Of a stretch of DNA of 64,000 bases, positions 145 through 33,666 are shown one piece after another; position 1 is the stretch's first letter; each line of letters opens with the position of its first letter. Made by a program: the position numbers and the translations under genes. The DNA is taken from contig NC_060112.1 of NCBI RefSeq assembly GCF_021155765.1, positions 12,710,001 to 12,774,000 on the forward strand, written 5' to 3'. The DNA is from Diprion similis. Taxonomy: Eukaryota > Arthropoda > Insecta > Hymenoptera > Diprionidae. The notes beneath the pieces are model-generated. The model was not told the origin of the DNA. It saw only the letters and a list, made by a program, of their open reading frames with translations, and searched no databases.

Positions 145-3100
145 CAGTATAATCAAAAAATTGCCCCCTCAGCTGATCGGATAAAAATGATAATAATCTT
201 TTGTATTAAGGTTATCACATTTGAACTAATAATCTCTTGTTGCCAAAAAATGATTAAAATGATCATCAAATGTGTTTCGCTAAGATGTCAACGTGTCGTT
301 CTCCTTAACACGATTAAGATGATTAGCTATTAATTTAATACCTACTGATTACATGATTTTGAACTTTTTCTGTTCTTGTTTTACTAATAATGACGCGATG
401 AGTGTTTCAACTTACGATTCTACCTCAATTAATTCCTAACGAGCTGGTTCACATGTTTAAAAAGTTTTGAATGAGGACATCTTGTTATTTGATCTAATCT
501 CAGAGGGATGTTCACATGGATCTTCTCAATATAGTTATTTTTTGGAAATTTTTATTAGGACTCAACGTATATGATCGACCAATCATCCCGACGCTTCGGA
601 ATTTGTCTTATGCCAAACCAGCCATTTCGTTAGCTTGATTGATATAGCTCATGTTACAAATTACTTGATAAAACGAATTCCAACTGCTGTGAAAATGAAC
701 TTAAAATTTACATTATGAACGCCGTATATTTTTCTAAATCCTCCGGTCTGTAAATGCATATTTGTATGTATTTCGACTTTGCAGCGATTTACAAAGAGTC
801 TCCTCCCCGAAATGCGAAATATTCCAAAAATCATATATCTGATAATGTTGATCAAATGAGAAAACATCGAAATGTAACGCCAAATATTTTTATAATATTT
901 TTTGAGAAAAAAATTAAGAAAATCATGTCTGAGCTTACTTGATTACAGCAAATAGTATTAAAACCCTTCATAATATTCATCTGATGTTAGACATTCCAAA
1001 TTAACATTTCCATTGGGATAAAGCTGTTTGATATTCACTCGTGTATCTTTATATCAAAATAAAATAAAAGTAAATTTTTTTTTCTGGTATTTACACCTGC
1101 CCAGTAAACAGTCACATACTAACAATGAAAAATTGCTTTGTTATTGGAAGTTGCGATACTACAGTACAGTAATCCAATACCTCTGATTCACATGCTTATT
1201 TTCGTCGATTGACAATGAAAAAAATATAACAAAGTGTTTCTGTAATCATCGTTATCAAGTTACTTTCTTTTAACTGTCATCTTATCGGCTTTTGGTATAA
1301 TTTCACGTGACTTTATTGCATTGATCTGAATTCTCTTCAGGTCATTGAAAGACAATTTGATCTGAACTCTGCAGTCTAAAATGTTGTACTGAATGTTCTA
1401 TCAGGAAGTAGCAATAGGGCATTCACCTATTAGGGTCGTAATTATTTTAATCCTTATTTTTAGGTACCAATTCGCTTAAGGAATTTCAGGTAATTTTGGT
1501 AACCGTACAAATCTAAAATTCAAAGGTCGGAAATTATACGTTATTATTGTACGTTGTTTATTGTGTATTACAGCTGGATAATTGCTATACGATTTTTTTT
1601 TTGTATGAATCCAGATTTTATGTGATGGGTCTGAGAATGCTTTCATCTTCAGAGTTTGTTATTGCAACTCCCCGTCAAGAATATACATGCTTTCATGTTG
1701 AAATTAAAAAGTTTTTTTACCGACAATATCTTGGAGTGAACATAGATGTATTCGTGAAATGGGATATGGCTTACCTTATCTTTTAACCAATTCCTATTCT
1801 CTAGTTTTCAATTAGGTGAAAATAGTTTGACTGCAATTAATTGTTATGCAAGCATATTTGTATAGATGTTCAATATATCATACCATCACAGTACTGTATC
1901 TTAATTAAATACTGCTTAAGAGAAAAATATAACTTCATCAAAGTCAAATATCTAGCACGACAGAGAAGGCTGATAACCGTTAAATAAAACGTTTAAATTA
2001 AAATATTTTAATAATATTAAAATACACTAATTAATATAGGCATTAATATAACAACAGAATATCATTTTATTACATAACATTGATAATAATTGAATGTATC
2101 CAGTTCATACAAACAAATAATACATGGAGATGCATAAATTTAGTACATTCGTGAGAGCTTAATAAATTTTGACTACCTTACTTATAATATAAATGACTTT
2201 TATAAACGACTCTTCAAAACGTTTATAGGTAGCACTTGAGACACTTGACTTCGACTTAACGCAGATATTGTTTATAAAGGTATGACTCTGAATAGATGTA
2301 TACCATTATTCTTCATATTCATTTTTCATATTCTTGGTATACATTTTTATAGCTTGTTTTTTTCCTGCTTCCTTCAGACTAAATCTCTTCATAGGGTGTT
2401 TCATCGAAGCAATTGAGGTGACAATATCATTCGAAATTATTTCACGATCTCCAAAATCACTTTAAAATCTTCGATATCACACTGAAGTTGGTAATATTTA
2501 AATAAAATTTTGTATTAGTAACCATCGAGGTAATCATAGTAGTCATGATAAATCATTCAGGATTACAGAATCTCTTTGTAATCTTAAAAATTCATATGAA
2601 ATTATTATAAATCATGAGAAATCACACAATCCAAGTAAAATTCATTTGTCAAGCAATGACTCGTAATCACGATGTCAATACTTGCTCCGATGAAACATCT
2701 CTTGAATCCCTCTAGAGAGGATGAGTTTTTCTAAATTTATATTACTTTTTTTTGTATATTATAATTAATTTCTATTTTTCACCACTGGCTCCTATTAAGA
2801 GTGTGGAATGAAAGGGAAGATAATGACCGACTTGTTACAACTAAGATTTTAAACTATGGCCTCCATAGCCAGATTTAAACTACGATTACAGACGTTACTT
2901 ATGTCATGGATATTTCTGGATTTTTAGAATCCCGTGGAACACATTCAGAGAAATGGAATGTACTTTTATGATATGATAATGTAAAAGCATAATTATGGGA
3001 ATTTTTCAAATAATACTCGTGCTTTTCTACACCAGTCCGTAGAAAAATTCCTAGTACTCCATTAATGTACATTTGATTAACCTCTTCCCCTACGATTTAA

Positions 3101-6700: not shown

Positions 6701-9700
6701 GCGTCATCGGTGCGGAAACTCTAATGAAGGTAATTGTTGGATCCTCAATCAAGTCACAGAGAGCATGATCAAGACAGTCTAGGGATGCATAACAAGGAGA
6801 TGTGCGCAGCTTATAGAGAAAGCTGGAATTTTCGTGCAAGATATTCACATTTACTCCTATTTCTTGCAAAGTACATTGAGTACATGATTGGGTAAAATGG
6901 AATATAATAGTAGAATGCAAAATAAAATGTCATTTATAATGTTATATGGCTAAAGAACATATATGTTCCCAAATCATGGCGGATAATATCCGATCATACA
7001 TCATAATGATCGGTTGAATTTGAAAATAAGTATTTTACAAGGCCTACCTGCGATTGAGAAATGCAAAAAGATGTTCAGACAGTGTTAGAACAAAACAAGA
7101 AGCCAGATGCACATTCACACAATAGATTATAACCATACAAACGTTTTTGTGATCAATATATGGGTTTTATCCTACATTTGCATTTTCTTTAGAATCGTTA
7201 TACTCCTCATGTAACCCATTGTTACAAGTTAACAAGTATTACATTTAATATAACTGATTCACTTAATTTCAGTGTGATACTAATTGTGCCAAAATTGAAA
7301 TAAAATTCGTTTACTGAGCTACGCACATTTCCGTTGAAACCTGAATCATTAATAATAAACCCAGAAGCTTACTTGACATCTTCATGATCTTGGGAAAACC
7401 TGGATTTTGCAGGAGACGCTTGATAGCAAAAAATATGATGCATCATGCGGACATGTTTCCATTTGCCATATGAAAAGCGAACGAGCTCATGTTCGCGTAC
7501 TTCAGCTGTCTTGAATGTTGGCAATAACGTATGGAGCGTATCAGAGCATAGAGCGAGTAGCCTCCCACCTCGCACCATGTACTCAACCAGCTGAGACGCA
7601 ACATCCACTCCAACATTTCCACATACAACTACTAATCTGGCTTGATCCATCCAGACATCACTACGTGCTTCGTCACTAGACAGTGTGTATATCGTGTACC
7701 TAAAAATATTCGATTATTCAGTTTTCAAAGATAAAACTCAAAGTTTTACTATAACAGTCGACTGCAATAACGTTTTCGGAAATGTAATTCTCAACCTACT
7801 TATTCCTATTCAGAATAGATTCCAGCACACGCTTCACATTATCGATGGCAATGGTACTGTCTGCATATAGAAGTATGTTTGGAGGTTTGGCATAATTCCC
7901 TGATCCAGTGACTGCTTTCTTTGATGGTGAATAGCTGCGATTTTAAACTCTTTAAGACACAGTTAAAGTCATCTTTGATTTATACTAGCATAAGTGAAAT
8001 TTTTCAGGCTATAGCTATCTGGCATTGCAATTAACTCACTTTGCTGTACTGGTGAGCGGCAGTGACTTTGGTGATGGTATTTTAGTAGGACAATCACTCG
8101 GTACTACATCCAAACATTCTGGTGGAATCGAGTCAATAACTACGACAGATTTCGTCAGATTTGATTCAACAGAATCAACTAAAGTAAGGTCGTGGGATTT
8201 CGATGGGCTTGGACTAGCAGACAAGACCGTTGGTGTATCCAATGACGATGTAGGACTACATTCTAAGGAACCACTCAATTCTTGCGATAATCTTAATACT
8301 GTCCCATTGATAATTGCAGATGCAGATGCCGGGGTAGGTGGCGGTGTTGAAGGAAAAGGCGCATCTGATGTACTCTGTGTAGCTTGAAGTTGAGAAATAA
8401 ATAAATATACAGTATATTGCATTTGGATTATGAGCTACGAGGTGTGAAAAATGGGACTGAATTGGTAGGAAAGCTAGAACTAATTGTACGTACCTACTGC
8501 ATCTGAAGGTATTGTAATTTCCAAGATTGTTGGAGCATGAAGTGTGGGAATCTCATTTCCAGGGGATATACAAATTCCTGGTGTTTCTTCCACCTCAATA
8601 GGTATTCCTTGCTGTGATACTATCCTGGCAGTACTACTAAATATTCGTAGATTTTTCACTTGAGCATTCCATTGTGCTTTACCTATCAACTCTGAAAGTG
8701 GATATGAACAAAAAATTAATATACCACATGAATAGATTAGATAAGAAAAGAATTGAAAAGTAGTTCTTTCCCATTGATTAGCATGATCAAATACGTGATA
8801 TTAGATTTCTAGAGACGAATGATATCAAAGACCAATAACAGAAGTAAACAACGAATCTACTGGCTTTTCATAGTTTTATGTATAGTTGATAAAGGTCCGA
8901 TATTTGTAACATCAAACAGTACAAAATGCTGGCTTACTGTTCTTATGAAATAATTCAAGCTTATCACTGTTGTAAACACATGGCTTCCCATCGACCACTA
9001 CAGCTATGGAAAAATAAAGATGAGACAAATTTTAGCATATGAGATTGGCAATCTTCAGCTTTATTCATATTTCAGTAGTGTGTAATGCTTAATGAACTAG
9101 TTCAACTTACATTGTACACGAGTTAAACAAAGCCCATTATTGATGAACTGTTGTCCGTGCATCAATGCTGTACACAATTTGGTCAGATAATCTAAATCCA
9201 TTTCAAGTATAAGGGATATGTATTTGTTCGATGTCCAGGCCACGACTGTGCCATAATCCTCAAGCTATATGTAATGATTAATACAATGGTTTCAAGAATA
9301 TTTGGCAATTAAGACTCGCAATAGATCATAGTGGTATACTTTACCTTTGTTGCTTTAATAGATGCGGTAGGATTATAATGATCTAATTCAGCTTCTACAA
9401 GCACATGCATCCTACATTCTCCGAGAGATGCATCTTTACTGTAGTTGTGCATACATAAAGGAAACATTGTCTTTCCAAGAGGGAACTTTAGCCAGTCTGA
9501 CACATTTACTTTTTGCTGTAGGAAAAAAGGTTGTATCAAAATTAGATCAAGGTTCATCAACATTTCTAAAATTTAAAGCCATACATGAATACAAACAAAA
9601 TTTTGAATTACAAGATTTCAATTTCAAGCCTAACGTTACCCACAAAAAGTTCTATTACTTGATATAATGTATTTTTAGATGTTTTTAAAAATGCTGTATT

Positions 9701-10259
9701 TCCTAAAGGAAAACCAGCAATACATACTTGTGGGTATACGGAGCATAGTTGTTTATCGCCTTGATACCAAAGAAGATCCCCTAGTTTAGCAAGACTTCTG
9801 TTGCTGCATAATTCTGAACTGAGACTCTCAGTGCTACCGTTGCTCTGACTGGATGCAGTTTTTACTACACTGGATTCTTCGAATAAGGTAATCGCAAAAT
9901 TAGACTCCTTAAATGTTTCTAAGTACAGAACTGAGACTAAATCCAACTGTGTTAAATAATTATAGCCTTGGTTCAATCTACTTCTTTATCGTTATCATAT
10001 GTTCCAGCTTAATTTTACAACTTTGGGACAATTTTTTTGCTTCACATATTTACCTTGCTTTATACAACCAGTGGAATTGATGTAAAATGCTATGGTTGGA
10101 GTAGGAGAATTTGTATTTTGGAGAATAGCAGCTAGGCGTGTTCTCAGCGACGATAGCCTCCAGGCTTGAACCCATGTTGCCACCATGTAGAAGAATGTTA
10201 AGATCATCGTAGAGCAAACACGTATTTAATGGTGTCGCAGCCTGGCATAGATCGCTGAT
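3760..10259 (-). CDS. HLCS: Holocarboxylase synthetase (biotin-protein ligase), 5' end not resolved
   Basis: This enzyme joins biotin to lysines of carboxylases through biotinyl-5'-AMP, in cytosol and mitochondria. The C-terminal catalytic core is unmistakable: GRSKNVWLSPKGC, then KWPNDIYAG with KIGGLIV (the biotin/ATP site), then GVGVNLSNSEPTCCINDLI. The C-terminal biotin ligase domain ends HPDGNSFDILKGLIAPK. Exons in coding order: 10054-10259, 9659-9983, 9345-9515, 9111-9264, 8938-9003, 8494-8691, 8040-8382, 7800-7934, 7373-7699, 6369-about 6862, 5587-5769, 5315-5447, 4663-4823, 4467-4581, 4149-4362 and 3760-3931 (TAG at 3760-3762). Phases agree everywhere except the 7373/6862 join, where a small exon may be missing. 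The long non-catalytic N-terminal half, including KPPNILLYAD, matches animal HLCS. The initiator Met was not found with confidence; exon 10054-10259 is open in two frames, and only the one entered at 10259 fits the next acceptor. Confidence 0.93.
4965..5293 (-). mobile_element. Tigger/pogo-like short DNA transposon in an HLCS intron
   Basis: The element is 329 bp with perfect 18-bp terminal inverted repeats: CAATAGAACCCCGATTAA at the left and its complement at the right end. The GAACCCCGATTAA-type terminus resembles Tigger/pogo elements of the Tc1/mariner superfamily. On the minus strand the interior reads as a degraded peptide (RTLDTLTALVLILKQANVLTEHVVLVL) that looks like the far C-terminus of a jerky/Tigger transposase, so this is probably an internally deleted copy. 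A clean TA duplication is not evident: TA is present on the left and TT on the right. It lies wholly inside the intron between HLCS exons 5315-5447 and 4663-4823. Confidence 0.7.
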
Positions 10260-11739
10260 CTACTAAGAAAGTATAATTCAAGCAAAATTGACTATCAACT
10301 GCACAAATCAGATAAAACAAAAATTATCACTGAGGTAAATATAATTACAGTGGCTGATGGGTCAAGTGGTAAAAACGAAAAAAGGGGTTAAAATTTGAAT
10401 AACAAATTATACATGTATACTAAATATGCAGCCTGCCAGTCACTTTTACATAACATTGCAACTCCAATCCATTTTACGGGATTAAGAAAAACTTAATTAC
10501 TGACAACTGGTTAGAAAAAAACACTATTGATTACACAACCCTCTGTTTCCGACGGTGGTTTGATTCCGCATTCGTTATTATCGTAAAATTATCGTGTAAT
10601 AAAAATAAGTCTGACATTGGTTGCGTCAAAAGCCGATAATCAGCAAATTCCGCATACAAAGTATAAATTTCCAGTTAACGAGAGTTAACAGAAATAGTAA
10701 ACATCGATTGATTGAATGAGGGTAAAACCCATGATCACGATTGATAAAAAACAAAAATATCTGCACGATTTATTGATAATACCTGTTAATTTATTTTATT
10801 ATTGATATACCTTTTATGCACAGTTTCCGACCTAGGCAACGCCGTACATTTTTACTAAAACCGACCGACGATCTGCACGATCAATTTATGCGGCAGCGCA
10901 GTAAAGGGTACCGGCAAACTCTTGACACGTACATTGCTGATGGTAATTAGGCATGTGCGCATGTATGTAAAGCTGAATAGGTTGTGGTTGTACCAATATA
11001 ATATTTCTCCTCTTCTTACATTCCTTGAAATCCAACGCTTCCAAAGGCTCCGCGAAACAATTAATTAAATGTATTGTTCAGTTCATTAGAATACAGTAAA
11101 ACAAAGTAGTTATATCGAGGGTAAAAAGTCGATTTTAAAAATTAAATGGGCTAGTGGCAACAATGACATTGGTTCGTCGTGGAAAAACCAGGGGACTTGT
11201 TTCCCAACATGCTATAAGTTCCCAACATAATGGTCTACGAAAAGTGTCCTCTAGAGTTAGACAAGAAGGGAACGAGGTGGAGGTCAACTGCTCTCTCTTT
11301 CTAAGAATTTTATTAAATAAATACAATAATTAATACATCACAAGAAAAAAAAACTAGCAATTTCGGTCGCGGGTCACAAAATTATTAATCGAGGTTCCTG
11401 CCTCTATCAATATCGTCACCCGATTGTACGTACAATACATACAACAAATGATATGGATACATTTTTTATTTATCTAACGCTTGTTTGTGGTCGAAATTAT
11501 TCATTTGGGTCCCTATAAGTTTGTTAATTCAATTAATGTTCATTTTATGGCAAATCCGCATCCACAGTGCCCGCGCCAAAATTTGTGTTGGCCTAGTACG
11601 TTAAGGGGCCTAAATCATATTGCCACACTCCTGGTTAGAAGGAGACGGAGATTAACCTCCACCGGTCGCTATCTCTTTCTACTAGCTAGTCATATTCTAC
11701 CAGCCTAAGTGTAGTCCACACTATACGTCGATGATAAAA
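10260..11739. other. Intergenic or 5' region of HLCS, no firm exon
   Basis: The first exon or exons of HLCS and its promoter should lie here or a little further right, transcribed leftward, but I could not pick a unique start exon. A 63-residue minus-strand ORF (11135-11326) has no splice support. No tRNA or other RNA gene was recognised. Confidence 0.4.
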
Positions 11740-12012
11740 TCATTTAATCAAAACGTCGGTAGCACCAATCTGTAGTCGTGTTCTGCAGTGCCGGTAGAGC
11801 TTGTTGAGATTGTCGGTAACATTATTATCGATCTGAGTCCCATGATGTCGATGTTTTAGGAAATAAAGTTTTTGAATCTTGTCTAATGCCAAATTTTTCT
11901 TAATACGTATTTCATTGCATCGAAGCTTGTCAATGTGTCGTGTAAAATCAAAAAATTCCCATGAGCTTCCGTTCGTGGTTTTCAAATCTACGACTGCCGC
12001 TACGTCATGCAA
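11740..12012 (-). CDS. Hypothetical 90-residue ORF beside a likely divergent promoter
   Basis: An ATG-initiated ORF of 90 codons begins at 12012. It reads MHDVAAVVDLKTTNGSSWEF, a basic middle section, and ends RLQIGATDVLIK. I recognise no family. It starts about 200 bp upstream of the first exon of the plus-strand spliced transcript, so the GC-rich stretch 12000-12220 could serve both directions. It might instead be an upstream exon of HLCS or a chance ORF. No donor with a fitting phase was found for HLCS. Confidence 0.2.
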   Translation of the reverse strand: MHDVAAVVDLKTTNGSSWEFFDFTRHIDKLRCNEIRIKKNLALDKIQKLYFLKHRHHGTQIDNNVTDNLNKLYRHCRTRLQIGATDVLIK

Positions 12013-12029
12013 AATCTGGTTGTTTCGTG

Positions 12030-12230
12030 CGCAACTGCCGTGCGCAGCGGTGTATGACCGATCGATACCGGTCAGTCATACCTACCGGGCAGTCGGATAA
12101 AAGGCGAGTAAGCGTCGCGCAGCGCTCATTCGGCTTCAGCCAGTGCTGATTGGCAGTCGCGTCTGACGAGTAGAGTTTGCTCAGATTCAAATAGCTCGAA
12201 GAGAGCTGCGCACTTCAGTCTTGTAGAATC
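12030..12230 (+). promoter_or_regulatory. GC-rich candidate promoter for the 12.2-14.9 kb transcript
   Basis: This island is clearly richer in GC and CpG than its surroundings. It contains a near-palindromic block around 12053-12083 (GTATGACCGATCG then CCGGTCAGTCATAC) and an arthropod-initiator-like TCAGT at about 12212. The first strong plus-strand donor follows at 12360. The assignment is by composition and position only. Confidence 0.35.
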
Positions 12231-14881
12231 CAAATCGCTGTGTTATAAGTAGTGCATATTTCTAGTAATTTACATTCGGTGATTACCATGCAACATTCAG
12301 AAAAGTGCCTCAGAGAATCAGAGTATTATTAAAATCACAACAGCCTGCAAATGTTGAAGGTGAGTTACATTCGTCGTATTCAACCATCGTACGTGTAACT
12401 TGAAGTTGCTGCTGTCCGCAGGGTGTTGTGTTTTGTTTTTTGCCCACGGATTTTTGGTAACTAAACTCAATATGAAATTAGCAATTTGAAGTTAGGTACG
12501 CATTACGAATTAATCCTGTAGATTCTAACGGTCACCGGCCTGCGTCGATACCGAATTTACAAAACTGTCAGCGAGTCAAACAGTCAGCAGAGATTGGTTT
12601 TTCAACAGTAATCTCGATCATTCTTGAGAATAACGTAACATGCGTATTATTTTTTTATTGTAATGAGGAGATACGTCGGTTGTACGGTGAATTGGGTTGA
12701 TAAAACTGACCTTGCGGGGAATGACCTTCGTTTCAATTATTGTTTCTGATTTCGGATCACACGTAGCGCTCTCACAGGTCTATAAAATGCGATTCTCGCG
12801 TATAGGTCACTTTAGCACCGATTCTTGCGTATTGAAAACACGCTAGGTGAAAAAATGTCTGTGAGCTTAAGGATGCATTGTTTACATAATAGTGGCGCTT
12901 GTGTTGCGGCTGGTGCAGCTTACCCTTCAAAAACATACTGAGATTTGTGTTTATCACTGTGAGCGTTTCCTTGAATTACGAATCAACAAATTCATCTTCC
13001 TTCGCGTTTCTTTCTGAGAATCGATATTATAATACGTCGTTTCGTATTCTATTATAATATCTTCTTTCAGAAGTTCATATATTACGACGTTACTTATTTT
13101 CGAATTTCGAATAACTCGTACGTTCTTATTCTTATTATACGTCTGACGACGAAGAAGTATATTACGGTAAAAACCGAGGAACGTAAACGATTAACTGTTT
13201 TTTAATCGTGGTATTATTTTTTTTGAAAATAGTAATTAAATTATGCTTGATTAGTAGATCGATTTTAACGTTATATCATGGTATCTTATCTGTTTACAGA
13301 AACGAACTGCAATAACATTGATTGGTGTTAGTGATTACCTGGATCGAGTTATCCTATCAATAAATCCTGGAAACATCCTACATTGACTGAGGAGATCAAC
13401 TTATTTCCGAGAAACGGAAGGTATATATGGTGCAATCGATCATATTTTTAAAGATTAAGCATATTACAACACATTTGAAATATGCGTGTTAAATACTGTA
13501 CGTACATAGATTTTGGAAATGAAGTATTATTATATTAATTATTATATTATATAAATATTTGGAAATATTAACAAAATTTGGTGTTATTTTATCTGATTAC
13601 AGAAATAGACTGCAGCACGACTAATCGAGGTTTGCGATTATTTGAATTGAGCCCAGCAATAAACATCGAAGAATAAAATGCGAAATCTAACCAGGCCTCA
13701 ATGCTGTTGGAAAATAAAAAACAGGTACACGATCAAGATCATTTTCGATTACACTATCTGCTAAATTCACTCTAAGAAAGTTGACCTTTAGTTGAAATTC
13801 AATATTATTTAGTCCTTAATTACGTTCAAGAAAACTGTAGTAAATTTTCAATGCTTACTATTACTGATTCTGTGGTTCATGTATCGGAGCATAAAAAATT
13901 AATGAATTTTATAGAAAAAAAATTATTTGAAATAGACAGTTTCTAATGAAACGAAATCTGATCCAAGTATATTGCATGATTATTATTCTGTTATATTCTT
14001 ATTGCAGTGTAAAAAGTGCGTCACTTCACGATTCACCCTGGGATCTACCAGAACTACTACATCTGAAGTGTGGAGCAGCCCGGAGGAGGTGAAAATTGGT
14101 GAGTTTGCATGTGTTTAGGTTACGGATATTTCCCTGGTATTCCCCTGTCATGTGGCGTGGCGGTAACAATAATATTACATCAATCTTCGATTTCTCAGCT
14201 GCATGGATAGGCTCATTCGCAATCGCAACGGTGCTTAACTTTCAGTTGAATCATTTTTTTTTTTGCACTTTCATTTACCGTAGCTTACTTAGAGTTAGAA
14301 ATCTTACACGTTGCTAAATGTGGAATGAGCATCGCGACAGGTAACCATCACTCATTCGCAAATCGCAAGATTGAATCGTGTTTCGCTACTGATGTAATAA
14401 TCTAGATTTGAATTTAACAATTATGTCGTTTAAGTGATGGTTTCACCTGAGGTCTGAATACATTCAATTATTCACATTATTGTTGAATTGATGAAACTAC
14501 AAGGTCCAGCATAAAGTTACGTAATGAAATTGGATTTTAAATTATGAATCATATTCAATTTTTTAACAAGCAACAAGTATCAGTCAACTATAAGCTTAGC
14601 TCGTTTAGAAAAATGCTGATTAGCATACAGGATGTTTTTAATCCATTTTACAAAAGGTTGGTGTACCGATAGTCTGCCAGTATTTTCTAACATAACGCAT
14701 ACAATGTTAAGGTTGGCGTGATACAACTGCAGTACTGTATTCTGAGTAGGCAGACTATGGTACAAAAACATTTTTCTCCCTACAGGTAATCAACGAAAAA
14801 GTAAGCGACAGTGACCACGGCGCGAATGAGGAAGAATGATGTGTGTTGGAAAAAATGGAGAATCGTTTAGATCGAATATAG
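12213..14881 (+). ncRNA. Spliced plus-strand transcript, probably non-coding or encoding a micropeptide
   Basis: Five segments carry paired splice signals on the plus strand: about 12213-12359 (donor GTGAGT), 13300-13420 (TGTTTACAG acceptor, donor GTATAT), 13603-13724 (GATTACAG, donor GTACAC), 14008-14098 (ATTGCAG, donor GTGAGT) and 14786-14881 (CCCTACAG, donor GTAACC). No long ORF joins them. The best small ORF starts at ATG 13678 and crosses the 13724/14008 junction to TGA at 14090-14092. It encodes 43 residues (MRNLTRPQCCWKIKN, then SVKSASLHDSPWDLPELLHL, basic end). A second frame of the 14008 exon, spliced from an alternative donor at 14089 to 14786, ends SDSDHGANEEE. It could be a lncRNA, or the 5' UTR exons of a gene further right. 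Confidence 0.4.
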
Positions 14882-14899
14882 GTAACCGGGGAGGTAGGT

Positions 14900-16125
14900 G
14901 GTCGTTTTGGGATACGTCGCAGGGTTTGATGTGGATGTGCGTGTGAATTTTTTTTTCAACATTTCCGTTGGGTGGTTCCGTTGGGAATCAGGCGAGGGTA
15001 GGAAGGTCGCGATGTATCGTGATGTCACTATCTTTTGTAATCGACAGCGTCAAACTATCACAGACATTTAATCCCAAAACAATTGAAAGACTCTGTATCC
15101 AAGTCTAGCCTATTTATCAGTATTTGAATATTAAGAAGGTTGAATTTTTCAATAATTGTACTCTGCAATTATTTACTAGCTGTTATTCAATTCAATTATT
15201 CAGTCATTATCCATCATTATTTTATTCAATTAATCTCTGTGATCGTTTGAATGGGCAAAACTCATCTCTGGACTATCTATCGCGTTCCGTGGTACGCTAG
15301 ATAGGGAGAGATGCTGAGCTCGAAGACTTCGCGTTGAAGAGGACCGCCGACCGTCACGCCACACAATAATGCATGCTCTCCAACCTCCCTCCCGAACTTG
15401 ATTCGTATCTGAGAACAACAACCCGCATCGCAGTGTATCTGATTTGAAAAAACGTAGATGTGGATTGGGTTTCTACAGAGTTTTTACGACAAGTTCTAAA
15501 TATAAGAAACTTTTTGACAATTCATTCGATTGCGCCTTTTTGTGCGCCGAGTAATCACTGAAACTGCACGCGCTTTTAACGCGACAATTGATGATGCGAA
15601 TCGATTGCTCGTGCCTTTTGCGCATCGATTTCGCTAATAGTACGTGGGAAAGTGAAGCACTCTTGATATGCTTAGCTTTCAGCTGTTGAGTCAATTTTGT
15701 TATCAATAAACAAGTTTTCAAGTTTGACCGCGCCTTTTGCGCGTCCACTTGATACCTTGTGATTATGAGAGAAAGCACGGCATAAGCCGCGCAGAGATAA
15801 AAATCGCAGAGTGTATAATGATAGTGAAGAACCTTGGCCTAGGCATTTTTGAAAAATATCTGAGGTGTACAAAATTATTTGTTTTTTAACAATGGTATTA
15901 CTTTTTCTTCCAGGGCAATAAAGCAATTCTTTTTTACAAGTACACTGATAGCTATAAATTCCAGTCGAACAAAATATTTATTTCAATAAATGTCGGTAAG
16001 AAATAGATAACTAATAAATAAAATATGCAATTTGTTGTCATTATTAAAAATAATCCAAGTCAATATTGTCGCCGCGAATATCATGTTGGATTCGACATAG
16101 ATTTTATCACTGTACTTGTAGCAAC
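14900..16125. other. No gene recognised; clustered short GCGC hairpins
   Basis: I see no supported exon. Four related hairpin-like motifs of the form GCGC-CTTTT-GCGC lie between 15530 and 15745. Because of them a 101-residue minus-strand ORF (15473-15778) repeats DAQKARSN/KKAQSNEL-like words; this looks compositional rather than coding. An 8-9 base hairpin (CTATCTA ... TAGATAG) lies near 15276-15307. Confidence 0.4.
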
Positions 16126-16129
16126 TTTC

Positions 16130-17446
16130 TGTGTTTCAGCTAATCAAACCTCTCCACTGTTTCAGCTAATTAAACCTTTTATCTATTTCAGCTAATCAAA
16201 CCTTTTGTCTGTTTCAGCTAATCAAACCTTTTGTCTGTTTCAGCTAATCAAACCTTTTGTCTGTTACAGCTAATCAAACCTTTTGTCTGTTTCAGCCAAT
16301 CAAACCTTTCAACTGTTACAGCTAATCAAACCTTTTGTCTGTTTCAGCTAATCAAATCTTTTGTCTGTTTCAGCTAATCAAACCTTTTTTCTGTTTCAGC
16401 TAATCAAACATTTCCTCTGTTTCAGCTAAATAAACCTTTTGTTTGTTACAGCTAATCAAACCTTTTGTCTGTTACAGCTAATCAAACCTTTTGTCTGTTA
16501 CAGCTAATCAAACATTTCCTCTATTTCAGCTAAATAAACCTTTTGTTTGTTACAGCTAATCAAACCTTTTGTCTGTTACAGCTAATCAAACCTTTTGTCT
16601 GTTACAGCTTATCAAACCTTTTGTCTGTTTCAGCTAATCAAATCTTTTGTCTGTTTCAGCTAATCAAACCTTTTTTCTGTTTCAGCTAATCAAACCTTTT
16701 GTCTGTTTCAGCTAATCAAACCTTTTGTCTGTTTCAGCTAATCAAATCTTTTGTCTGTTACAGCTAATCAAACCTTATGTCTGTTACAGCTAATCAAACC
16801 TTTTAACTGTTACAGTTAATCAAACCTTTTGTCTGTTTCAGCTAATCACCTTTTTTCTGTTTCAGCTAATCAAACATTTCCTCTGTTTCAGCTAAATAAA
16901 CCTTTTGTTTGTTACAGCTAATCAAACCTTTCGTCTGTTACAGCTAATCAAACCTTTTGTCTGTTTCAGCTAATCACCTTTTTTCTGTTTCAGCTAATCA
17001 AACATTTCCTCTGTTTCAGCTGAATAAACCTTTTGTTTGTTACAGCTAATCAAACCTTTTGTCTGTTTCAGCTAATCAAATCTTTTGTCTGTTACAGCTA
17101 ATCAAACCTTATGTCTGTTACAGCTAATCAAACCTTTTTTCTGTTTCAGCTAATCAAACCTTTTGTCTGTTTCAGCTAATCAAACCTTTTGTCTGTTTCA
17201 GCTAATCAAACCTTTTTTCTGTTTCAGCTAATCAAACCTTTTAACTGTTACAGCTAATCAAACCTTTTATCTGTTTCAGCTAATCAAACCTTTCCTCTGT
17301 TTCAGCTAATTAAACCTTTTGTCTGTTTTAGTTAATTAAACCACCCCTCAGTTTCAAGCTAATTAAACCTTCTGTCTGTTTCAGCAAATCAAACTTTTGC
17401 CTATCTCAGCTAATCCAACCTTTTGTCTGTTTCAGTTCTGTTTCAG
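16130..17446 (+). repeat. 26-bp tandem repeat array, about 50 copies, each shaped like a 3' splice site
   Basis: The consensus unit is CTAATCAAACCTTTTGTCTG followed by TTTCAG (26 bp), repeated without interruption over about 1.3 kb. Variants include GTTACAG for GTTTCAG, TAAATAAACC for TAATCAAACC, ATTTCCTC for TTTTGTCT, and two 24-bp units near 16840 and 16970. A multi-unit higher-order block (CAAACATTTCCTC, then AAATAAACCTTTTGTTTG) recurs near 16400, 16505, 16870 and 16990, so the array has grown by block duplication as well as single units. Each unit carries a branch-point-like CTAAT, a pyrimidine tract and CAG, all on the plus strand. The outer units are the most diverged, as expected for array edges. 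Confidence 0.97.
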
Positions 17447-17598
17447 AGAAAAAAGAATTAATCTGAAAGTGTCTAGTTGAGTTAGTTATATTTTTTCGTT
17501 TTCACGGTGTAAAATTTGTCAAATATCATTCTATCTGCAAATTCTGAGCTCACAGTCAAAGTGAACACAAAGTGCATCGAGACTTATTACGATTTCCT

Positions 17599-17985
17599 TC
17601 AGAAGGTTTCGTTATGTTCTCGTTTTACTTTAAAATAAGAGTATCGTTCCAAGTTGTTGATCATCGTTTTCATTGATACTCCTTCATGAAGTTTGTTTTG
17701 AATTGAACTGTAGAATTCTGAAGATCTTACGTTTTGTGGTGATTGGGAATCTTCTTTCTCCTTTTCTCCTCTCATTATTTGGATTGCATGTAAAAACAAA
17801 TTGATCAATGTCGTTGAGATCAATTTTACATTTCGATCTTCTTCGTGGAATAGGCCTATTGGGGATACCACGTTTAAAAAAAACGCACTGAATGCTCTAC
17901 CCCTAGTGGTGGTGTGGAAACGAGCTGTCACTATATTTATATAAAATTTTAACAAATGTATTATTATAGTAATGGTTATCTTCAT
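17599..17985 (-). CDS. Hypothetical 128-residue ORF with hydrophobic N-terminus
   Basis: A minus-strand ORF begins MKITITIIIHLLKFYINIVTA, which could be a signal peptide or membrane anchor. A mixed hydrophobic and basic middle follows, and it ends KREHNETF. I recognise no family. It has no clear splice sites and sits between a satellite-like array and a tandem duplication, so it may be chance. At 128 codons in AT-rich DNA it is longer than most spurious ORFs here. Confidence 0.2.
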   Translation of the reverse strand: MKITITIIIHLLKFYINIVTARFHTTTRGRAFSAFFLNVVSPIGLFHEEDRNVKLISTTLINLFLHAIQIMRGEKEKEDSQSPQNVRSSEFYSSIQNKLHEGVSMKTMINNLERYSYFKVKREHNETF

Positions 17986-18029
17986 CTTGTTATGGATATA
18001 TAAAAAAGATATATCGAAAGGGATTTTAA

Positions 18030-18420
18030 TTAAATTATATTATTGCAATTTATTGTTACCATTGTTATATGAATCTTAACTCTTTTAAGCAACTGGACTC
18101 TTTTAGAATAATCATCTTTTATATTATGTAAACTAAATGCTGTTTTATTTCAAATATAAATCACTCAATGCTGGAACATGAATTAATCAAAACTACCTTG
18201 AACGTGTACATATTTATTATTTATATTAATATATTTTAATTGAATTATATTGTTACAATTGTTATATAGATCATAAACTCTTGAGCAACTGGACTTTCTT
18301 AGAATAATCATCTTTTATATTATGTCTACTAAATACTGTTTTATTTCAAATATAAATCACTCAACGGTTGACCATGAATCCAATTAAAACTAACTTAATT
18401 ATGTATACATATTTACTATT
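18030..18420. repeat. Tandem duplication of about 196 bp (two copies)
   Basis: Two adjacent AT-rich copies share long blocks at a constant offset of 196 bp. The word AGCAACTGGACT is at 18088 and 18284, ATCATCTTTT at 18111 and 18307, and TTTCAAATATAAATCACTCAA follows in both. The copies differ at perhaps one site in ten, so the duplication is not very recent. No ORF spans it. Confidence 0.9.
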
Positions 18421-18529
18421 GCAACTGATGGAGGTCAGAGCATTTTGTAAATCTGCAGGGATGCGCTCAAACAGGAATCTGAAGACGGCCAATCAAACGC
18501 GGTATGATTTCCTTTATGTCTGGATTTCA

Positions 18530-18675
18530 GTTCTTGACCAATAGGAATGTCAATAATATTTGTGATTCTACTACATACATACTAACCACGGAGTAGAATA
18601 ACTCCGTGATACTAACTGATACTAACCACCAGGTAGCGCGTCCCTGTTTTATCGGCATTCCTATTTGTCAAGAAC
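18530..18675. repeat. Inverted repeat with internal hairpin upstream of GCC2
   Basis: TTCTTGACCAATAGGAATGTC at about 18531-18551 is matched in inverse by GGCATTCCTATTTGTCAAGAA at about 18653-18673, with 19 of 21 positions complementary. Between the arms is a perfect 8-bp hairpin, CACGGAGT-AGAATA-ACTCCGTG (18587-18608). It could be a small remnant of a foldback element, or structured DNA upstream of the GCC2 start at 18978. Confidence 0.6.
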
Positions 18676-18977
18676 ACGGTATCATGAAAGTTCAGCCTAT
18701 GTATCGATTCTCCTGAGAATTTGACTTCGATATTAAGTATCGATAGATTTACATTTATTTTTGCAAAGACATCAGCTGATAGTACGCCGTGGCTTTTAAA
18801 CAGCATATACGAGCTGTTGAATTTTGTTACATATCTATGACGAAACGTCACACTCAAATGCAAGTCAGATTAAAGTTGGTCTAGACCATTCAAGAATGAG
18901 TATAAGTCACCTAATAGTCGGACTCTGATCTGGAGGTATCGTTTTTGGCACTAGATCTAGTTAAAGCAGATTTGAGG

Positions 18978-21900
18978 ATGGAAAATGAATCCCCTAAGGT
19001 TGACAATAGCGAGGTAATCATCCTTTTGTGCAATTGACTATGTACACTTAAATTATTAAATACGCCAAACGTGGCACTAGCTGCAATCTCAGATTAACAG
19101 TTGTAGTAGTGCGACATTGTGTATTCTTAGGCCTGTTAATGCCAATGGTAAAGAAAACTTTCTGAACTGATTCTAGGCGTCAAAGTCGACGTCAGTTGCT
19201 AGCGAGACTTCTGCGAAGCCTGAGGAAAAAGAGTCCCTCGAAGAACGATATAACAAGGTATAATATCTGGCGTGATACTGCAGTCTTATGCTTTCATAAT
19301 ATGTGCTTTCATCTTCCCACAAACAGCTTGTATACCCCTGAAAATTTTATATTCCCCATGCATTATGAAAAAAGTTTTTCTCAGTCATCATAAGGTCTTA
19401 TAAGCTTCATACTTGCATATTTCAGTTTCGAGTTTATGCCGTTAAATTAAGACACAAGGTCTCCGATCTCACTGAACTGCTTCAAAAATCCGAAGCTGAG
19501 AAGAATAAAATTATCTCCGACAAAGAAGAGCTTCAAAATCGAATTATTCAAATTTCAGATAATGCCAAGAAATTACAGGTAATTATACTCAAAACAACTG
19601 TGTCACAATTTTTCTAGCCTTATTCAACGAAAGAGAAGGTAATCACTGCTGATAAATTAGTTCAAGCCTAACATCGTGGCCTAAAACTCATGATATAATG
19701 TCACTATTGTTCTGTACCCTATTCATCAGACAATTCAATCTGAGTACGACAAGGTACAGGACAACTTGGAACAGGCAAAAGATGAGAACAAGAAGCTGTC
19801 GAAGAATCTGGAGACTTTGTGTATGGACAACTCGTCCTTGAAAGAGGCTTTGTATGAAAAAAAAAATACTATCACTCGTCTGACTGCTGAAGTTGATCGT
19901 TTCACCAAGGAGCAGTCTAGACTCGAAACTCTTGTCAAACAATGTCAAGATACAATAAAAGCGTTGAAGGATGAGAGAAAAGCGGAAATAATGATCAGAG
20001 AACAGAAAGATAAAGAATATGAAGAAATGAAAACTAGTCTCAACTTGGAGAAAGAAGCTCACAAAACAACTAAGGCTAAACTTGAAGCGACAAAACAAGA
20101 ATGTAATACCAAAAGTGTTCTTTCTTTAGAAGTGCAGAATTATGAGGTGAGGAAAGCAATTCGAAACTGAATTTACTAATAACACTTATTATATTTGCAA
20201 ATAGGAAAAATTTTTCTGTTTTTACGTATCAATATCGCCACAAAAGTAAAAAGAATTGTTCAAAAATTATTAGGGTAAAGCTTTTCCAATTCAAATTCGA
20301 GAGTCGCGCTATATTTTTCCGTTCATGGTTGCAGAAAAGTGTCGAAGATTTAAAAGCAAAGCTTGAAAACGAATCTTCTAAGCGAAACAGCATGCAAAAA
20401 ACAGTGGACAAGCATTTAGAAACAATTTCAAACTTGGAAATGCAAATATCAGAGCTGAAAGACACTTGCCTCGCGAAAGCTAATCAGATTACTGTCTTGG
20501 GTGAAAAAAACGAAGCTATTAAGCAAGAAATGTGTGAAATCAAACGTAAAGCAGACGATGAAAAAAAAATAATGGATAAATTGAATAACGAACTGAGAAC
20601 ATTGTCTCAAGAAAAAGACGAACTATCTACGAAAATAAATAAGCTTATGTCTGAACTAGACATCGCTATAAATGACAGACAGAATCAAAAGAGACAATGC
20701 GATGGGCAGGTAGTGTAGAAATATTTATTCACACGACTTTTAAACAAATCGACATGATCCATTTTGCATATTTGTAGATCAAAACCTTGGAATCCGAAAT
20801 AACAAGGCTGAATGCTGTAATTGCCAGGGGGAACCAGGAGTTAGAGGCATTGCATGAAGAGTTCACAGGGTATAAGTTACGAGCACAAAGCGTACTCAGG
20901 ACAAAGCAAAGTCAGGGTAAGGATGGTGGCAGAAGTACAGTCGAAGTTGAAGAGGAACTTGAACATGCTCGGACCCACGCTGCCCTTCTTCGTGATAAAC
21001 TAGATTATTATACGTTAGTACTTACTCAACTTACTCATTTTATTCATAAATATTATTATAGGTATAAATCATTCAGTATTGAAGAATTGCATACAAAGTG
21101 AACACAAGTTGAGACATTGTAAACTAATTTATTCCTAGTCACAGACTGGAACTTTAGCTGATGTTAGTTTCTCCAAACAAAAATATGATATTCGTGTATT
21201 ACGTTTTTTATCAATTTAACATATTGTATTTACATATAAATGTTAGTTTTCTAGGGAACTATGCATTGCAGGTAAGAAGATATGTAAGGGTTACTTTTTT
21301 ATAGATTACAGATCGAGAATCTCAGAAGAGAAATTGCTGTCGTGGAAGAGGAACGAAATCATGCAATACAGAACGAAAAAGAATGCAATCAAAAAATATC
21401 GATGCTACATCAAGAACTTTCCTCTGTGACAGAACAGTTGCGTTCAAGTGCTAATAAAATTCAGCAAATGGAACGCCAACACAAAGAAGAAATAGACTCA
21501 ATGCAAACTAAGCATAAAGTAATGTTATATTGCAATGCTACAGACATATACAAATTTTGTTGAAGTCCGTACAAAATTTCGAAGCCTATCAACTTGAGTT
21601 ATCATTGAAATGCACCATGGTTGCTGGATTTATGAACCTGCCCAAACTCACTGTAATTTTGTTTTCAGCATGAGATATTTGCGTTGGAAGAGAAGCACCA
21701 TGAAGAGTTTCAGAATATGCAAATGGAAAAACAGAAAATGATGCTCGAGGGATCAAACGACACTACAATTAATCAAAATTATTCAGATAAATATGTAGAA
21801 CATTATTCGGAGCTCGAGCATGATTCTAGATCCTCAGGAATACCACTTCTGGAAAGAGAGGAAGGAGAGGTACTTACGTTAGATTTACTTATTCGATACT

Positions 21901-23188
21901 GATATAGGTACTTCTGAAAAATCAATTGGCAAACGCTCTTTACTCATTATGAATATTACACGACTGTAAACGGCATTTCTTGACTACTTTTTCTTCATTC
22001 AGGGATCTGAAAGTGTAGATTCGTCCTCCTCAGTAGTAGTCAACACAGAAAAGCATCGTAAGCAGCCTCTGATGTCACTAGATGAGTTACTCAATTCCCC
22101 AGATGATTATCACACAACTGTAATGCCACCGTTGTCTCTAACCGTGGACCGCCAGACTTATGAAGTGTGTGAACGACGTGTTAAGCATTTAACGGTACTG
22201 CTGGCTGATGCAGAGAGAGATATTGCTAAATTGACACAGCTTAACCAACTTCTCAAAGAAGATATTCGCACACAACAGCGTAGCATAGAGAGAGAAAAAC
22301 ATGGAAACAATTTTGAATACCTAAAAAATATTGTTTTTAAGGTAATAACCAACTGAATTTAGCTTTTTTCAAACTTATTCACTTAAATTTGCATACAAAA
22401 TCACCAGTCACGATATACTATTTGTTTGTACAAAGATGGTGCAATGGTGGAATATTTCTTTTGAATTACAATAATCTTTATCATACGACAACCACTTCCA
22501 ATTTTACAGTTTATAGCTATGAGTGCCTGTTTCATTCATATGTCCGTGCTCTCATCCAAAAGATTACAAAATTTTTGCTATTTGGTTCCCTTGAAACATG
22601 TCTTCTTAACATATTTTCAATATATTTCAGTTTATCACATTGAAGAATGGCGATGAGCGCAGTCATCTTATACCTGTACTTAATACTATACTTAAACTAA
22701 GCCCTGAGGAAACTCAGAAACTCAATGCTGTTGCAGGAGGTTAGTAATCTTCTCATGTTTTCGTAGTATTGGACGAGTTTCATAAAATTTTTATCTAAAA
22801 CTGTATTAGATAGTTACTACTTTCTGCTGGTTTGAAGTTAAATTGCTGTGACCAAAAAGTTTGATTGAGAATTTATAAGGTTGAACTTTCTCCTCGAAAT
22901 GCAGCCTTGACCATAAACTAAAGCGTATTCCCTTGTAAATTGACTAAAATTTGCAAGAGCCATCAGCCAACTACTTCTTTATGCATATTCACGACGGATT
23001 TTAACTTATTCAATTTCTAAAAATCGATGGTAAAAGTGAACCATAGTTTGGTAACCTGGAAATAACACGAAATAACTTGTTGCACATCAAGTGCACACAC
23101 TGAATAGTAATTCATGACATTGGTTGTTGCAGTATCTGGACGAAACTGGATTCCAGGGATTCCAATACCAGGATGGAATCACTACTAG
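18978..23188 (+). CDS. GCC2: GRIP and coiled-coil domain-containing protein 2 (GCC2/GCC185), 738 residues
   Basis: This is a peripheral trans-Golgi golgin that tethers endosome-derived vesicles through a long coiled coil and a C-terminal GRIP domain. Exons: 18978-19013, 19177-19257, 19426-19578, 19730-20146, 20335-20709, 20778-21013, 21305-21518, 21669-21869, 22003-22341, 22631-22739 and 23133-23188. All phases agree, giving 738 codons plus TAG. Nearly all of residues 50-570 are Glu/Lys-rich heptads. The C-terminus is diagnostic: an LLEREEGE acidic segment, SLDELLNSPDD, then GRIP-type NFEYLKNIVFKFITLKNGDE and LIPVLNTILKLSPEE, and a final WIPGIPIPGW. The order matches vertebrate GCC2, but at well under half the human length (about 1680). 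The conserved YKLRAQSVLRTKQ patch is present. If the last intron is retained, the protein stops two codons after AVAG. Confidence 0.95.

Positions 23189-24287: not shown

Positions 24288-33666
<9,379 letters not shown>

Follow-up and report, generated by a model that had tools for sequence, protein, structure and literature searches.

Arrays of 26-bp units resembling 3′ splice sites in a dispersed, probably once-spliced family of noncoding loci in Diprion similis

Tandem alternative acceptors of the NAGNAG type consist of two or three sites that lie a few bases apart. Among RNAs built from tandem repeats, hsr-omega and satellite III are reportedly grouped with the long noncoding RNAs that sequester splicing regulators. 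In human cells, the tandem-repeat RNA PNCTR sequesters the splicing regulator PTBP1 (PMC6224606). A limited search of the literature found no description of arrays of consecutive 3′ splice sites.

We analysed a 64,000-nucleotide stretch of Diprion similis DNA, referred to as the window, which contains a 26-bp tandem array of acceptor-like modules of the CTAATCAAACCTTTTGTCTGTTTCAG type at positions 16132..17435 of the plus strand. Tandem Repeats Finder reports a period of 26, 50.3 copies and 87% matches, and wrap-around alignment of the array to a circular 26-bp unit yields 50 units. Each unit consists of CTAAT, a pyrimidine-rich tract and a YAG. The AG is present in 50 of 50 units, T2 and A4 of the CTAAT are both retained in 48 of 50, and the units end in TTCAG in 31 cases and in ACAG in 17. 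An earlier note on this DNA had described about 50 units with CTAAT, a pyrimidine tract and CAG, and this description is confirmed. The branch A, which it had placed about 22 nt from the AG, is unit position 4, 22 nt before the G of the AG. The locus is like NAGNAG-type acceptors in having several potentially competing AGs in a row, but here there are about 50 of them, each with a branch-like motif. The locus also resembles PNCTR-type lncRNAs, in whose noncoding loci short pyrimidine-rich motifs recognised by splicing factors are repeated in long arrays. It differs from them in that every unit has the make-up of an entire 3′ splice site, where theirs is one motif for an RNA-binding protein, and in that many dispersed loci carry it.

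To count such modules we used a working definition of our own, in which a YTNAY is followed, with no intervening AG, by a stretch with at least seven pyrimidines in nine and a YAG. Between 16130 and 17446 there are 32 modules on the plus strand and none on the minus strand, and the whole 64-kb window has 98 on the plus strand, including the 32 of the array, and 56 on the minus strand. The density is 24 per kb in the array compared with about 1 per kb elsewhere on the plus strand of the window (66 modules). Dinucleotide shuffling of a single 26-bp unit left a module present in 158 of 5000 shuffles, so the content of one unit is only mildly surprising and the repetition is the striking part. The array is a minisatellite by its tandem units of 10–100 bp, its variable copy number and its locally duplicated blocks; the 24 arrays of this kind that were analysed have 9–52 units each, and their higher-order periods (best lags) are locus-specific. 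Intronic minisatellites as a class share the unit size, the copy-number variation, the higher-order duplication and the unit drift. Unlike in that class, the unit boundaries here match the grammar of an intron end, and the same holds for another type of array found at two related places.

The array is not restricted to the window. A search with positions 16130–16400 found at least 40 separate array places on 12 contigs of the 269-Mb assembly (40 of 70 candidates were scored), four of which form one tandem cluster on contig C2. A pattern search for the 26-bp unit that allowed up to three mismatches gave 586 matches, compared with 0 for a reversed control. The array is thus no private intron end of this locus; at least 40 places carry it, and in the 23 others read it lies within a repeat family. 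From the 40 places, 20 regions with one non-window array each were fetched, and the arrays of L030, L032 and L033 were added later; the unit statistics refer to 24 arrays with 834 units, of which L009 and L010, as members of a single tandem cluster, cannot count as independent. The stretches fetched at L029 and L031 contained no array. The orientation of the array relative to its flanks is identical in the window and in the 23 other loci read.

The dispersed repeat copy that holds the array in the window extends over approximately 11740..18450 on the plus strand; identity between copies collapses after about 18400, and the upstream limit is approximate. In fifteen copies, including that of the window, the homology extends for over 3 kb upstream of the array and for about 1 kb beyond it; these copies make up a star-like subfamily with 5–10% divergence. 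Older copies share parts only. The core equivalent to 14096–15595 occurs in 9 of the 11 older copies read, with about 75–80% identity, and is absent from the parts read of L009 and L013; the stretch immediately before the array is also common to older copies. Because the downstream flanks of the fetched loci are unrelated beyond about 1 kb, and no other genomic copy was found of window positions 9000–11219, the array is part of a dispersed repeat family. Transposable elements likewise occur as scattered copies whose flanks are unrelated; here the flanks were compared mainly on the downstream side.

Proteins of the family's own were sought in 15 of the 24 stop-to-stop frames of at least 60 amino acids between 11740 and 18544, and none of the 15 had a Pfam match above the curated cut-off (best E 0.0055). 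Protein-coding exons were rejected on this result. Since, in addition, the exon-like block at 14008 differs in length by 7 bases between copies, the blocks are taken as noncoding. The family probably resembles noncoding loci that were once spliced. Dispersed copies with a common internal array are also found among dispersed non-autonomous repeats with internal tandem repeats; in contrast to these, no coding capacity and no defined family ends were found here, and exon-like blocks occur together with a covarying RNA. LTR-type ends were considered as well; what had been taken for a terminal repeat is instead a short, independent element with inverted termini, which lies at the 5′ edge of the family and parts of which lie after the 3′ edge in four loci (L011, L016, L020 and L021). 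This element (CATCGAC.TATAGTATGGACT) occupies about 11210–11737 of the window, is present in L034–L041 and occurs alone at many places. An insertion of about 4.4 kb with the termini CAGGGTGGCGAC and GTCGCCACCCTG lies at the equivalent of 15589–15595 in L032 and L033, and the same point holds a stretch of 0.1–0.4 kb in L025, L026 and L030.

Upstream of the array, the plus strand of the repeat copy has a series of blocks with splice-like boundaries. A TATA-like box with a putative first exon, which ends in GAAG followed by GTGAGT, is predicted at 12096..12359 from sequence only and is matched by family copies. An exon-like block lies at 14008..14098; older copies have a GT-AG intron after the point equivalent to 14088. 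In all nine older copies that have this stretch, the equivalent of 14008–14088 is followed by an intron-like stretch of 155–182 bases that starts with GTAA and ends with CAG, and then by a block of 47–50 bases and GTGAGTTT. The interior of the intron-like stretch is more diverged than its edges; the subfamily of the window has lost this stretch. A further exon-like block at 14786..14881, with an AG before it and a GT (14882) after it, is situated inside a longer conserved block, 14751–15060. The AG and the GT are intact in 19 of 19 aligned copies (19 of the 21 loci searched matched), which agrees with the earlier proposal of an upstream exon with a free donor at 14882. The use of 14882 as a donor and the existence of a separate exon stay putative, because conservation continues past the donor to about 15060. 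In agreement with the earlier note, each unit of the array amounts to a full 3′ splice-site-like module and shares its strand with these blocks, whose GT-AG boundaries are conserved.

Between 15191 and 15390, also on the plus strand, lies a block that is conserved between subfamilies, with 81–94% identity per 20-base step, and its folding energy is not unusual. None of the conserved blocks has unusual folding stability (z 0.92, 0.07 and 0.48). In 12 copies of the young subfamily, private substitutions amount to 0.134 per column in the conserved blocks compared with 0.209 elsewhere. This ratio of 0.64, or a lower one, was obtained in 22 of 1314 circular shifts, and the deficit is modest. Since the window, L019 and L027 had served to define the conserved blocks, this comparison excluded them. 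A looser count without gap filtering gave a stronger contrast, and the strict count is relied on here. The deficit is a weak sign that the copies may still be constrained.

There is no conserved exon right after the last AG of the array (identity 0.73–0.84 at 17437–17496), and older copies run on into differing sequences beyond it. About 0.4 kb downstream of the array, on the same strand, lies an 81-nt RNA motif that forms a covarying pseudoknot (17844..17924). The 81-nt block is sharply bounded and has 83–100% identity to the version at L042 (40 matches scored). Its 27-base core has 64 genomic copies with up to three mismatches, compared with 0 for a control. Three loci (L057, L058 and L059) carry the motif yet share nothing else with the other places. 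The structure drawn from 21 sequences has a hairpin at its 5′ end and a second domain that is pseudoknotted, and 98.7% of its cells are paired, compared with 22–55% when the structure is slid along the alignment. Four pairs have changed on both sides, as reached by 3 of 500 shuffles, with 14 such cells (0 of 500), and further pair types are no more numerous than in the shuffles (264 of 500); the 21 rows are related copies from which the structure itself was drawn, and these counts do not represent independent events. The structure has many G-U pairs, so that the plus strand is favoured.

A comparison of window positions 9000–20000 with Rfam gave no match at E values up to 1, and L042 and L043 gave none at gathering scores. 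The 81-nt motif itself had chance-level matches only, the best at 15.9 bits with a cut-off of 38. With these negative results a known RNA family was rejected for the motif and for the locus. A self-cleaving ribozyme and a riboswitch were considered, and nothing was found to support either for the motif. The 81-nt motif is a candidate for a structured RNA without an Rfam family, and as a putative new RNA family it is of interest in its own right. It is also present at L042:910–991 and 8245–8326, at 2970–3051 of the reverse complement of L056, and in L057, L058, L059 and L060.

In the window copy and its close relatives, exon-like blocks, array and 81-nt structured RNA follow one another in this order on one strand. 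Our preferred explanation, tentative and held at a little under an even chance, is that the array may be an amplified intron end in noncoding, originally spliced loci, in which single units are expendable and any of many acceptors may suffice. A 3′ intron end with its branch motif, pyrimidine tract and CAG would have been amplified in the ancestor of the dispersed family, which would itself have comprised noncoding, originally spliced loci. In this reading the window copy would be transcribed, and upon transcription any of the many AGs could accept a splice from an upstream donor. Redundancy among the acceptors would allow individual units to drift while the array grows and shrinks by local duplication, and the presence of some usable acceptor might be all that matters, which would be the reason for the survival of the AGs. 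The amplification of an ordinary intron end is the best-supported part of the earlier reading. The roles that the earlier note had suggested beside it, as an acceptor decoy, a spliceosome sink, a delay of splicing or a source of many isoforms, are speculative. If the AGs are used, the arrays offer a natural experiment in acceptor choice by the spliceosome, with tens of equivalent sites to select from.

Nearly as likely, and a serious possibility, is that the array is a passive minisatellite in a non-functional dispersed repeat, untranscribed or unspliced and without function, with a grammar inherited from its founder unit. The pattern of changes within the units agrees with this explanation in several respects. 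Among the 834 units of the 24 arrays, the AG is intact in 703 and lost in 131, and single arrays lack it in as many as one unit in three (4 of 12 in L032 and 15 of 50 in L015). In the 22 arrays with at least 10 units (L030 and L033 were left out), 328 changes private to one unit, deletions included, show no preference for any of the 26 positions (chi-square p 0.74); T2, A4, A25 and G26 jointly have 47 private changes compared with 50.5 expected. Such evenness would follow from sites being redundant or unused, and is expected for either. The earlier note had also stated that substitutions largely keep the grammar of the unit, which is true of the window copy, where every one of the 50 units has its AG; it does not apply to the family, with its 131 lost AGs and even private changes.

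The unit consensus is that of the window in seven of the nine older arrays, where the flanks are 20–28% different, and individual units deviate from the consensus by 6–19%. Conservation of the consensus was rejected as evidence for selection, since a majority vote over drifting units yields the same result, as passive persistence would have it. In the 15 younger arrays, AG retention ranks 15th of 25 neighbouring pairs, so that even the need for some acceptor is hypothetical. In the nine older arrays (182 units), the AG is the second-best kept of the 25 pairs (0.929 compared with a median of 0.808), and the window array is among the best kept for AG. These last two observations are less easily explained by passive persistence, and so is the lower number of private substitutions that the young subfamily has in the subfamily-conserved blocks. 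Altogether, the signs of selection on individual acceptors are weak and partly contradictory. If the AGs are neither used nor bound, an intron-end grammar would have been multiplied without function, which is a caution for splice-site prediction.

Several kilobases were read at eight places that carry the 81-nt motif outside the 26-bp family. At L042, in a cluster of 12 motif copies on contig C2, a 117-bp array begins 0.9 kb after one copy of the motif; about 4.3 kb, in which other arrays lie, separate its end from the following copy. At L056, a 119/160-bp array ends 0.3 kb before the motif. The 117-bp and 119-bp units are homologous to each other, and each contains two or three modules, on the sense strand only. 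In total there are 29 modules at L042 (12 per kb) and 43 at L056 (16 per kb) on the sense strand, versus 0 on the other strand, and 85 and 111 of 5000 unit-level shuffles, respectively, did as well. The 26-bp unit aligns with both units better than most mononucleotide shuffles do: of 2000 shuffles, 12 align equally well with the L056 unit, the other 1988 doing worse, and 44 with the L042 unit. A common origin of the 26-bp and 117/119-bp units is possible. At L063, a 264-bp array has about one module per unit. Acceptor arrays are absent from the stretches read at five of the eight places (L057, L058, L059, L060/L061 in the C11 cluster and L062 in the C12 cluster).

The fetched loci contain 12 array types besides the 26-bp type, in 23 arrays; three of the types (117, 119 and 264 bp) reach at least one module per unit and nine have less than one, which suits passive persistence. 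Neither the 117-bp units of L042 nor the 119-bp ones of L056 retain the CAG better than their other positions, which points the same way; in the L056 unit, one branch motif and its pyrimidine tract are better kept (98th and 90th percentile). Against passive persistence stands the presence of a second array type with acceptor-like modules at two places that share the 81-nt RNA. We regard the recurrence of sense-strand modules in this second type as suggestive, not decisive. A broader extension of these observations, which we consider unlikely, is that multi-copy noncoding RNA loci marked by the 81-nt pseudoknot built arrays of 3′ splice-site modules on their sense strand at least twice, once from 26-bp and once from 117/119-bp units, and that their transcripts would be multivalent platforms or redundant acceptors for the 3′ splice-site machinery.

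We think it quite improbable that the array is a dedicated platform for splicing factors, in which tens of branch-point and pyrimidine-tract/AG sites would bind SF1, U2AF or U2 snRNP and thereby titrate or localise them. The number of modules per kb at the window array, L042 and L056 (24, 12 and 16), together with the absence of modules from the opposite strand of each array, would suit such a role, but no selection on individual sites was detected in young arrays and many copies include units that lack the AG. The recurrence of modules is, moreover, only moderately surprising, with three of the 12 other array types at one module per unit or above and the 117-bp and 119-bp types homologous. 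Precedent for sequestration of a splicing regulator by a tandem-repeat RNA comes from PNCTR and PTBP1 (PMC6224606). If the AGs bind factors without being used, the arrays would be a natural sponge for 3′ splice-site factors. A role at the DNA level, in which the CTAATCAAA-type unit would seed heterochromatin or be bound by a DNA-binding protein and its splice grammar would be a coincidence, is very unlikely: the arrays are repetitive and dispersed and the chance of a module in one unit is not negligible (the 158 of 5000 shuffles), but such a role would leave unexplained why the 117/119-bp arrays have modules on the sense strand and why the array is flanked by splice-like blocks on one side and a structured RNA on the other.

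Thus the amplified, redundant intron end is the reading that we retain for the window array, which is outside any recognised protein-coding gene and which, in our reading, sits upstream of the presumed first coding exon of a coiled-coil gene on the plus strand. That gene (18930–22356, plus strand) lies just past the repeat copy, and its GRIP and Rab-binding matches are below their cut-offs. A tubulin C-terminal match (E 1.3e-31) was found at 33075–33548 of the plus strand.

Several head-to-tail noncoding clusters carry family blocks, arrays or the 81-nt motif, and the unit size differs per cluster. The cluster at C2:5885304–5907403 (L009 and L010) has units of about 7.1 kb, that at C1:10214159–10271349 (L043) has units of about 10.3 kb, and that at C2:10236498–10346076 (L042) has units of 5–16 kb. 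A donor-like GTAAGT in the 143-bp units of L042 was dropped from consideration because it is absent from the 142-bp consensus of L060; it reappears in the 145-bp repeat type of L063. A tandem repeat of 142–145 bp is common to L042:4486–6358, L060, L061, L062 and L063 (contigs C2, C3, C11 and C12), all of which have the 81-nt motif.
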